Shown here: in pieces, positions 55,789-59,518 of the stretch
Numbering within the stretch: the stretch's first letter is position 1
Layout: the number at the start of each line of letters is the position of its first letter
Source: Desulfogranum japonicum DSM 18378
Lineage (GTDB): Bacteria > Desulfobacterota > Desulfobulbia > Desulfobulbales > Desulfobulbaceae
Length of the DNA stretch: 64,000 nt
NCBI RefSeq assembly: GCF_000429945.1
Contig: NZ_AUCV01000035.1
Coordinates: 1 to 64,000 of the forward strand
Direction: 5' to 3'
Position numbers and translations under genes: made by a program
The notes under the pieces: model-generated
Told to the model about the DNA's origin: nothing
The model's input: the letters and a program-made list of their open reading frames with translations, nothing else
Database searches by the model: none

Positions 55789-56628
55789 ATGGCAGAAAAC
55801 TCTTCTTTTATAGACATTCTTAACAAATGTATTGAATCAGATTCGGTGCAACTCCCTGTATTCAATCCAACAGCACTGCGCATACGTGAAGAACTGGCAA
55901 AAAAAGAACCTGAAATAAAGGTCATAGAAAAGGTTATAAATTCCGATCAGTCCTTATCCAGTCAGGTTCTTAAGATAGCCAACTCATCTTTTTATAGAGG
56001 TCTGGCAGAAATATCCTCCATACGAGGCGCCATCATGCGTCTTGGTATGAGGGAAATTGGCAAAATCGTTCTCATAGCTTCCATCCAGAATACCTTCAAA
56101 AGCAAAGATAAATCGTTACACATTATCATGAAGCGGCTGTGGCAGCACTCTGTGGGTTGCGCCTATGGTGCCATGTGGATTACCAGACGCCATGAATACA
56201 ATATCGCATCTGACCAGGTGTTTTTTGCAGCCCTCTTTCATGATGTTGGAAAGCTATTTATTCTGATGGTTATTGAACACATCAAAAAGAAAAACCCAAA
56301 AATACAAATAACTCCTTCACTGCTTAAGGAGTCCATGAAAAGACTGCATAGCTCTGAAGGATTCAAGCTTCTCACGCACTGGAATGTTCCTGAGCAGTTT
56401 GCCGTCGTAGCCAGGGATCATCATGATCTCGATGTTCAACAAGACAATGTTCTCTTGCTTATTGTTCGTATGGCCAACATGGTGTGCAACAATCTTGGTA
56501 TCAGTGTCGACCAGAATGAGTCAATCATGTTGCCTGCAACTCTGGAAGCAAACATACTGAACCTTAGCGAAATTGACATTGCAGAATTGGAGATTTACCT
56601 TGAGGATTCCAAAGTCCTTACAGCCTGA
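55789..56628 (+). CDS. HDOD-domain protein
   Basis: 279 aa. HDOD fold: LSSQVLKIANSSFYRGL, SIRGAIMRLGMREIGKIVL, FHDVGKLFILMV (HD pair kept, as in HD-GYP-like relatives), HWNVPEQFAVVARDHH. HDOD proteins act in signalling, often with c-di-GMP and motility systems; true phosphodiesterase activity is not expected without GYP. Three nucleotides after the GspE-type gene, so translated with it; together they suggest c-di-GMP-linked control of a pilus or secretion motor. Confidence 0.88.
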   Translation: MAENSSFIDILNKCIESDSVQLPVFNPTALRIREELAKKEPEIKVIEKVINSDQSLSSQVLKIANSSFYRGLAEISSIRGAIMRLGMREIGKIVLIASIQNTFKSKDKSLHIIMKRLWQHSVGCAYGAMWITRRHEYNIASDQVFFAALFHDVGKLFILMVIEHIKKKNPKIQITPSLLKESMKRLHSSEGFKLLTHWNVPEQFAVVARDHHDLDVQQDNVLLLIVRMANMVCNNLGISVDQNESIMLPATLEANILNLSEIDIAELEIYLEDSKVLTA

Positions 56629-57084
56629 TGTTTCTTATAGCCGCACAACAATTAACCAACCGTAATAATAAAGCTTTTCAGAAAAAATCCCAAAAAACTC
56701 TCTACGGAACCCAGCATATTTTACAGGATGTACTTTGTTGCCGGACAGTTGCAGTTGAACGTAGAGCCTGAGAGACAATGTATAGATGAGTTGGTCAAGT
56801 ATACCAATGGACACTTTATCTAGCCGAACCATTAGATTTTTCATATATTTTCCATAATAAACAGGGTGTAGACATGGTAATCTACAGTTCCAAAACTGAA
56901 CAATCCTGGCAAGACGTCATGGCGCGTTCGCCGGAGAAATAAAGAAATGCCCTACAGCATGATCTCCTCCACCCCACCCCCCAACCAACTCTGTTCGCTT
57001 CCCTTTGCGCGATTTCAAGCTTTCCTGTATAGTGCGTGTTGCTGAACATATTTAATCCATAGAAAAATACTTTTGGGGGAAACT
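56629..57084 (+). promoter_or_regulatory. Gap with sigma-70 promoter of the selenoprotein-bioFG unit
   Basis: No gene in this 456-bp gap. A well-spaced promoter lies at 57005-57033: TTGCGC, 17-bp spacer, TATAGT, with GTGCGTG after it. It is 52 bp upstream of the ATG of the selenoprotein gene and nothing else lies between, so it should drive that gene and bioF, bioG. Confidence 0.55.
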
Positions 57085-57423
57085 ATGACCATAGATTGGG
57101 CCTATCTCAGAAAAGGTTGAGCATCCTGCAAAAAAGCACAGGCTGTGTTTGAGGAGAACAATATTTCCATTACTACCTCGGTAGAAGCACGTAAAGAAAA
57201 GATAGAGAGTGAAGCTGCCTGGAAAATACTCAGTGCAGCCAATGAAATAATCATTGGTCGGGGAAAAAAATTCTCATTCTTTCATCCCTCTTCCGATAGC
57301 CAGGAAGAAATACTCAAGCAATCCCTGGGCAGGAGCGGCACGCTGCGTGCGCCAACTCTGGTCATTGGCAATATGGTTATAGTCGGGTTTAACGATGAAA
57401 TGTACAGACAATATGTCAAATAA
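57085..57423 (+). CDS. ArsC/Spx-like selenoprotein, UGA-encoded Sec12
   Basis: 112 aa if the in-frame TGA at 57118-57120 is read as selenocysteine. From ATG 57085 (GGGGGA before it) the frame reads MTIDWAYLRKG, Sec, ASCKKAQAVFEENNIS and continues unbroken to TAA 57421. Sec12-x-x-Cys15-Lys-Lys-Ala replaces the CxxCKKA redox motif of ArsC/Spx-like thioredoxin-fold proteins; later DIS-like and LRAPTLVIGN (cis-Pro) regions are present. Read as a normal stop it leaves only the false start at 57145. Likely a redox or arsenate-reductase-like enzyme. Overlaps bioF by 11 nt. Confidence 0.82.
57121..57150 (+). promoter_or_regulatory. Candidate bacterial SECIS element
   Basis: Right after the UGA, AAGCAC (57134-57139) pairs with GTGTTT (57145-57150) across the loop AGGCT: six pairs, G at loop position 2 and 3, loop start 20 nt after the UGA. 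Bacterial SECIS hairpins have a small apical loop with a G near its start, 16-37 nt downstream of the UGA, so both position and loop fit SelB binding. Confidence 0.6.
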
Positions 57424-58627
57424 ACAGGAAGAGGAGCGCTCTCCTCTTCAGGAAAATCTTATTACCAGACTGCATGCAATAAAAGAACAGGGACAGTTCC
57501 GACAGGTTATACCTCTCAGCCATACAGACAAAGGTTGTATAACCATTGACGATAAACAGTTCCTTAACCTTGCTGGCAACGATTACCTGGGACTTGCCAC
57601 CAACCGGAATCTGCATCATGAATTTTTTACCGGTTTAAACGAGGATACCATTCTTTCTTCATATGGTATGGGGAGCACTGCCTCCAGGCTGATGACCGGC
57701 AACACCAATCCCTATGCCACCCTTGAAAAGCATCTCAAAGAATTATACGCCACTGAATCAGCCCTTGTCTTCAACTCCGGATACCATATCAACATAGGTA
57801 TATTACCGGCCCTTGCTGAAAAAAAAGATCTTATTTTAGCGGACAAACTCTGCCATGCCAGTCTTATTGACGGTATGCGCCTTTCACGAGCCAAAGTTAT
57901 CCGCTATCCCCACCTGGATTATGAAGCAATTGAACGTATTCTGCGTACAGAGCGATCAGCGTACAGGCACGTATACATAGTGACAGAATCTATTTTCAGC
58001 ATGGATGGCGATGAAGCTGACCTGGTTAAACTGGTTGATCTGAAAAATCGCTATACATGCACCCTGTATGTTGACGAGGCTCATGGTGTTGGAATTAGAG
58101 GTGCCAGAGGATGCGGTCTTGCAGAGGAACAGGGAATTCAAAACGAAATAGAGCTTCTTACAGGCACTTTTGGTAAAGCCTATGGTGGGCAGGGAGCTTT
58201 TGTCGTCTGCACGAAACAGATGGCGGATTTCCTGCTTAATACAGCCCGTTCCCAGATATTCACCACCGGCCTGCCACCGATTTCCGTCCACTGGCTTTGC
58301 TTTATTATTGAAAAGATTCCACACCTGCAGGAGCAACGCCGTACTGTTGCCTGTCTCGCTGAACAGCTGCGACAGGAACTTGCGCAGCAGGATCTTCGCA
58401 CCCATGGGACCAGCAATATTGTCCCTGTCATGATAGGTGACAGCAACCTGGCCATGAACATTGCTGAAAACATGGCTGCTTACGGATTCTGGGTGAAAGC
58501 AGTCAGACCGCCAACAGTCCCTGCCAACACATCCAGATTGCGACTCAGCATCAATGCAGCCATGGAGTGGTCGCAACTAGCTCCACTCCCCCAGCATATA
58601 GCAAAAGCGTTAAGGGAACATGCGTAG
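57413..58627 (+). CDS. bioF: 8-amino-7-oxononanoate synthase
   Basis: 404 aa from the ATG at 57413 (upstream ATG 57395 also in frame). Alpha-oxoamine synthase: LAGNDYLGLATN, GSTASRLMTGN, ESALVFNSGYHINIG, the PLP site TLYVDEAHGVGIRG with Lys in GTFGKAYGGQGAF, and FTTGLPPIS. Condenses pimeloyl-ACP/CoA with alanine, the first committed step of biotin ring synthesis. The start lies inside the end of the selenoprotein gene and bioG follows with an 8-nt overlap. Confidence 0.88.
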   Translation: MSNKQEEERSPLQENLITRLHAIKEQGQFRQVIPLSHTDKGCITIDDKQFLNLAGNDYLGLATNRNLHHEFFTGLNEDTILSSYGMGSTASRLMTGNTNPYATLEKHLKELYATESALVFNSGYHINIGILPALAEKKDLILADKLCHASLIDGMRLSRAKVIRYPHLDYEAIERILRTERSAYRHVYIVTESIFSMDGDEADLVKLVDLKNRYTCTLYVDEAHGVGIRGARGCGLAEEQGIQNEIELLTGTFGKAYGGQGAFVVCTKQMADFLLNTARSQIFTTGLPPISVHWLCFIIEKIPHLQEQRRTVACLAEQLRQELAQQDLRTHGTSNIVPVMIGDSNLAMNIAENMAAYGFWVKAVRPPTVPANTSRLRLSINAAMEWSQLAPLPQHIAKALREHA

Positions 58628-59273
58628 TCAATGGCTCCATAGACACGGTCATGGAGAATGTATTCTCTTCATGACCGGCTGGGGAATGGACCAGCACCCC
58701 TTTGCAAGCATACCAACCCAAAAATATGATATCTTTCTGGTGTATGATTACAGGGATATCGACTCATACTTATTACCAGACAAGAAAAACTACGATAAAA
58801 TCCATCTCATTGCATGGTCCATGGGTGTGTGGGTAGCGGCCCACTGTCTCCATTCGGTGCAGGATATTTTTACCACCCGCATGGCCATAGGGGGCACCTT
58901 GGATCCTATTCACAATGAACTGGGAATTCCTCATTCAAGCTACGATTCCATACTCCACAACCTATCCCCAGAAGAATTGGAAAAGTTCTACGGTTCCATG
59001 TTTACGGATCAAACTGAGACTCAACGGTTCTTGTCTTCCAGGCCACAACGCGATTTTAAGGATATTTACCAGGAACTACAGGCTTTCAAAGATCACTACC
59101 AGGCTGCGGGGACTGCCCTGGATATGTATACCCACAAAATCATAACCAGTCGTGATCGTATTTTTCCCCTGAAAAATCAGATTCGATCCTGGGGAAAACA
59201 GGTTGCCCAAAAGGAGAAGGTTCCTCATTTTCCTTTTTTTACCTATGGCTCATGGGATTTTTTGCCCAAATAA
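58620..59273 (+). CDS. bioG: Pimeloyl-ACP methyl ester esterase, BioG/DUF452 family
   Basis: 217 aa. Alpha/beta-hydrolase: GWGMDQHPFAS, YDYRD, nucleophile Ser in LIAWSMGVWVAAH, AIGGTLDPIHNELGI. This DUF452 pattern is BioG, which frees pimeloyl-ACP from its methyl ester at the end of the BioC pathway. No bioC, bioA, bioD or bioB is in the window after it. Overlaps bioF by 8 nt. A convincing pair with bioF. Confidence 0.84.
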   Translation: MRSQWLHRHGHGECILFMTGWGMDQHPFASIPTQKYDIFLVYDYRDIDSYLLPDKKNYDKIHLIAWSMGVWVAAHCLHSVQDIFTTRMAIGGTLDPIHNELGIPHSSYDSILHNLSPEELEKFYGSMFTDQTETQRFLSSRPQRDFKDIYQELQAFKDHYQAAGTALDMYTHKIITSRDRIFPLKNQIRSWGKQVAQKEKVPHFPFFTYGSWDFLPK

Positions 59274-59518
59274 CTGCCCAGAAACTCAGCGCTTCATTCA
59301 TTTCATTTTTTCCCACACTACAAGTCAGAAAGAACTACATGTAAAAATAATCATTGCAGGACAAGGATTATTTTAGACCTGTACGAAAGAAAGTAGACAG
59401 CAACAAAAAAGTTTGTAATATAATAAATACTTGTGCATATCGATATTTTGAGGGCATGTATACGTTTATACGTATGACGTGTACAATACATTTTTTATAC
59501 ATCCATAAAGAGAAATAT

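Follow-up and report, generated by a model that had tools for sequence, protein, structure and literature searches.

The window analysed here, a stretch of 64,000 nucleotides from Desulfogranum japonicum DSM 18378 (contig NZ_AUCV01000035.1), contains a short gene of the ArsC/Spx-like family with an in-frame TGA codon in its redox motif, followed directly by bioF and bioG. The features of this gene row are the following.

57075..57079, plus strand, GGGGG, possible ribosome-binding site of the selenoprotein gene (from the sequence)
57085..57423, plus strand, ArsC/Spx-like selenoprotein gene of the NF041106 family, 112 aa with Sec12
57118..57120, plus strand, in-frame TGA read as selenocysteine, the U of UxxC (from codon conservation in homologues)
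57127..57129, plus strand, TGC, encoding Cys15, which presumably serves as the resolving residue of the UxxC motif (27 of 28 alignment rows have Cys here, L044 has Ser)
57134..57150, plus strand, SECIS-like hairpin with loop GGC at 57141-57143 and a UGA-to-loop distance of 20 nt (from folding, a SECIS-model search and the published model)
57395..58627, plus strand, bioF, 8-amino-7-oxononanoate synthase (TIGR00858, 412.0 bits, slightly below the curated cut-off of 426.45)
58620..59273, plus strand, bioG, pimeloyl-ACP methyl esterase (PF04301, 101.3 bits, cut-off 27)

The selenoprotein frame opens at ATG 57085-57087 and closes at TAA 57421-57423, a stop that overlaps the bioF start (ATG 57413, or the in-frame ATG 57395); the 3' end of bioF overlaps the start of bioG (58620). 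With its single in-frame TGA, at 57118-57120, read as Sec, the frame yields a 112-residue product containing U12-A-S-C15-K-K-A. Start, TGA and a TAA within the bioF start all lie where the original prediction had placed them, and the translation bears out its motif, Sec-x-x-Cys-Lys-Lys-Ala with the UGA at the first redox Cys. It also anticipated that standard gene calling would begin at 57145 and lose the active site, which is what the mechanical open reading frame list does, starting at GTG 57145. The sigma-70 promoter described 52 bp upstream was not recovered: a sigma-70-like scan of 56500-59500 returned seven sites, near the shuffled mean of 5.9, and none on the plus strand upstream of 57085.

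The TGA codon is conserved among relatives. Searching the NF041106 profile against 395 genomes sampled from the phylum gave matches in 36 at E <= 0.001, 28 of them above the cut-off; in all 28 the codon flanked by R-x-G and x-(S/T)-(C/S) is TGA. Five of the eight weaker matches contain one internal TGA, not always at the redox site, and the weak match in genome G114 spans profile positions 44-106 only. A scan of a larger genome collection found at least 562 relatives among the 590 candidate stretches listed; in the best 80 of these, which are nearest relatives and not a random sample and partly overlap the set of 28 (e.g. L031 and L061, whose positions overlap on contigs of equal length), the redox codon is TGA in 77 (two from the printed translation) and a Cys codon, TGT or TGC, in three. 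At position 12, where a sense codon other than Cys or Sec would have counted against the original prediction, the homologues have Sec (28/28 and 77/80) or Cys (3/80). A sequencing error at 57118, named in advance as a way in which the prediction could fail, is very unlikely because so many homologues have the same TGA. A tblastn search of a plasmid collection yielded no relative, and among 33 candidate stretches in viral contigs no relative was confirmed.

The three Cys forms (L083, L097, and L106) are nested among Sec forms: in a midpoint-rooted tree of 81 rows they group together (100/93) within a 13-row branch (97/90), the other ten rows of which are Sec. One homologue, L044, reads UASS and keeps Sec but has no second Cys; the family may therefore not depend strictly on a resolving residue. 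Two distant ArsC/Spx-like genes (L050:1501-1803 and L049:1498-1785), with NF041106 scores of 32.0 and 32.9 bits, likewise show TGA where the first redox residue is encoded (UTTC) and keep the RRP motif; PMC1794560 names a "distant ArsC homolog" for Desulfuromonas, to which they may correspond.

The original prediction pointed to selA, selB, selC, and selD as genes to look for, and profile searches of the genome found selA (611.7 bits), selB (359.6 bits), selD (366.8 bits), and a tRNA-Sec (75 bits; anticodon tca, UCA, by ARAGORN), each as one match above its curated cut-off. The selD gene of this genome (L010:1501-2442, G000:C27) itself carries an in-frame UGA (U61) and is a second such decoding case. 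Among relatives, selA is present in all ten Sec-form genomes searched (ten of the genomes behind 12 loci picked from the 77 Sec loci) and in two of the three Cys-form genomes, with none shown in the genome of L106. Sec is therefore not compulsory where the machinery exists.

According to the SECIS model described in PMC13188914, the loop measures 3-9 nt, the stem 4-16 bp, and the UGA-to-loop distance 16-37 nt; one of the first two loop nucleotides is a G, and the minimum free energy does not exceed -7.5 kcal/mol. The hairpin predicted 20 nt after the UGA does lie there, at 57134-57150, with 7 bp and the loop GGC, all within the geometry of this model, although the 17 nt folded alone reach a weak -4.0 kcal/mol. 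Stretches of 34-54 nt from the UGA reach -7.0 to -11.0 kcal/mol via different folds, and the hairpin competes with rival folds (pair probabilities 0.14-0.32). Compared with codon-resampled copies, the simple folding energy of the 45-nt stretch from the UGA onward gives a z of only -0.64 in the window and a modest mean z of -0.98 over 28 genes, 24 of them below zero.

When the search is restricted to hairpins of the SECIS model, the best one in the window has a z of -2.14 against codon-resampled copies. Over 96 distinct Sec genes, whose z values are not independent because the sequences are related, the mean is -1.96, with 91 of the 96 below zero and 42 below -2. A control stretch 30 codons further on has a mean z of -0.05 (31/96 below zero), and the three Cys genes have a mean of +0.59, none below zero. 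In 84/96 genes the best model hairpin has a UGA-to-loop distance of 20, 22, or 23 nt, and two of the 96 have no hairpin. An RNAalifold consensus for eight homologues (group f1, seven of the window's family and L034 of another) scores -5.65, matched by none of 200 resampled alignments; those of two further groups, "order" (13 sequences) and f45 (12 sequences), are reached by 0/200 and 2/200 resampled sets, respectively. Over all 28 sequences RNAalifold finds no common structure (200/200 resampled sets reach the same). Here too the sequences are related and do not amount to independent trials.

The product matches the NCBIfam model NF041106 (ArsC_rel_Se_1, "ArsC family (seleno)protein") with 128.7 bits (cut-off 85) over the full profile, 1-107 of 107, and does not differ from the members of that family in the features tested. 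Its AlphaFold2 model (mean pLDDT 96.4) has a Spx/ArsC-like fold. Foldseek returns five matches at E <= 0.001; each is a chain of Spx or of the ArsC family, and their TM-scores are moderate (0.51-0.55 by query length). The top VIA-align match is Spx (3ihq_A; Z 8.8, rmsd 2.8, 87 aligned); the arsenate reductases 3rdw_A (Z 7.5) and 3f0i_B (Z 7.4) are also among the neighbours, at a level, under about Z 8, that may reflect a common arrangement only. Sequence and predicted fold together support the ArsC/Spx-like assignment made in the original prediction. The glutaredoxin-like (seleno)proteins of the Uxx-star model NF041212 match at residues 7-41, around the Uxx motif, but score 19.4 bits, under the cut-off of 66.

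Several explanations can be weighed against these data. If UGA 57118 were a true stop or an error, in a frame that is a decayed gene or arose by chance, this would fit the mechanical list, which halts at the UGA and restarts at GTG 57145. However, the same TGA recurs in the homologues and the genome has complete Sec machinery, and divergence after the UGA is of the coding type: in comparison with six relatives, the third codon positions downstream of it diverge most (0.56-0.63 vs 0.29-0.34 and 0.19-0.23). We regard this explanation as extremely unlikely, and hold with high confidence that this is a real selenoprotein gene of the ArsC/Spx branch, with UGA 57118 decoded as Sec and a product that is likely an oxidoreductase of the thiol-disulfide type.

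The nearest solved structures being Spx, the protein could instead be a redox-sensing transcription factor of the Spx type, contacting RNA polymerase and using its Sec-Cys pair as the sensor. The (U/C)xxC pair is retained, and the product has the fold and the active-site stretch in common with Spx regulators (e.g. 1z3e, 3ihq, and 6ghb), CTSCRKA of Spx aligning with U/C-x-S-C-K-K-A. Nevertheless, it differs from them in having Sec for the first Cys and Ala for the second Arg of LRRP, and scores far below the Spx cut-offs (34.8 bits vs 75.05 for Spx/MgsR TIGR01617; 28.6 vs 159 for SpxA NF009210); moreover, Spx is a regulator of Firmicutes. We consider such a role improbable. A true arsenate reductase with a Sec nucleophile, as the family name and the two reductases among the structural neighbours might suggest, seems less probable again. 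The Pfam ArsC score (PF03960) is 15.2 bits, below the gathering score of 24, and none of the four neighbouring genes that received a profile annotation is an ars gene. In addition, all 28 rows have Ala immediately ahead of the conserved Pro (Ala89-Pro90), where Spx has Arg; in ArsC this Arg contributes to oxyanion binding, so its replacement speaks against arsenate reduction.

We therefore return to a small thioredoxin-fold selenoprotein of the ArsC/Spx branch. Its synthesis would involve SelB bringing Sec-tRNA to UGA 57118, aided by the hairpin just downstream, a step strongly supported by the sequence comparisons. Motif and fold suggest that Sec12 would act as the attacking nucleophile and that Cys15 probably closes a Se-S bond with it, so a thiol-disulfide type oxidoreductase is the most likely function.

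Desulfotalea psychrophila belongs to the same broad group (Desulfobulbales) as D. japonicum. An ArsC-like selenoprotein was reported from it in 2006 (Zhang et al. 2006, PMC1794560), and is likened to ours here by name and description. A 2008 list includes a UxxC "Arsenate reductase 2" (PMC2398784) and an ArsC UxxC selenoprotein entry appears in 2022 (PMC9312934); a 2026 catalogue crediting the 2008 paper lists NF041106 as a UxxC "Arsenate reductase-like protein" (PMC13188914). A text search for "ArsC" or "arsenate" gave no hit in PMC8318568 or PMC12013277, and the relevant parts of the cited literature name no substrate for the NF041106 family. As NCBIfam and published lists of selenoproteins already include its family, the D. 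japonicum gene is a genuine, ordinary addition to a catalogued family, and the selenoprotein carries less surprise than the original prediction gave it.

The adjacency to biotin genes noted in the original prediction is real and recurs in relatives. Within the 395-genome phylum set, bioF lies directly downstream in all seven gene-carrying genomes of the window's own family and was not found beside the other 21 above-cut-off loci, in flanks of up to 1.5 kb, some cut by a contig end. By homology, 27 of the 80 best genome-collection loci have bioF no more than about 200 bases downstream (26 by clustering of open reading frames; no downstream frame was called in 4/80). These 27 loci and the window all fall within one 34-row branch (99/85) of the 81-row tree, six rows of which show no bioF (L052, L062, L063, L067, L069, and L090, the last with fewer than 100 bases of downstream sequence). 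Because the tree group test set the bioF rows against the three Cys rows only, the lineage statement rests on the branch as drawn; as neighbours differ outside it, the bioF link characterises a single lineage, not the NF041106 family as a whole.

Reportedly, selenoprotein gene neighbourhoods were treated by Haft and Tolstoy in 2025, and the bioF link may already be described there. In a search at the level of titles we found none naming a selenoprotein-bioF link; PMC11643466 concerns selenium supplementation and biotin in yeasts.

The bioF start often lies within or close behind the selenoprotein stop, and many rows have no clear ribosome site for bioF itself, a judgement that leaves out the six of 27 rows that gave no bioF motif. 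Neither bioF start in the window (57395 or 57413) has a listed ribosome-site motif; AGGA occurs in the last selenoprotein codons of L051, L057, L071, L073, and L077, and GAGG behind the selenoprotein stop of L053. A strong hairpin (57428-57449, GAAGAGGAG/CTCCTCTTC; -14.0 kcal/mol for 57426-57450) occupies the first bioF codons just past the selenoprotein stop and could affect bioF translation.

In this lineage the selenoprotein gene, bioF, and bioG form a tight row that we read as probable co-expression, in preference to a direct role of the selenoprotein in biotin synthesis. Translational coupling, and hence selenium-dependent BioF synthesis, is possible: with bioF starting at the selenoprotein stop, often without a ribosome site of its own, its translation would depend on UGA readthrough. 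It is nonetheless unlikely that the selenoprotein serves biotin synthesis in the bioF lineage as a dedicated partner or as a selenium-dependent gate. In D. japonicum, reading the raw sequence proved correct where a plain list of open reading frames cuts away the active site of a selenoprotein. The bioF adjacency, retained across most of one branch, provides a testable lead to the role of this selenoprotein, and if the selenium gate were true, bioF translation would be tied to UGA readthrough and hence to selenium supply.
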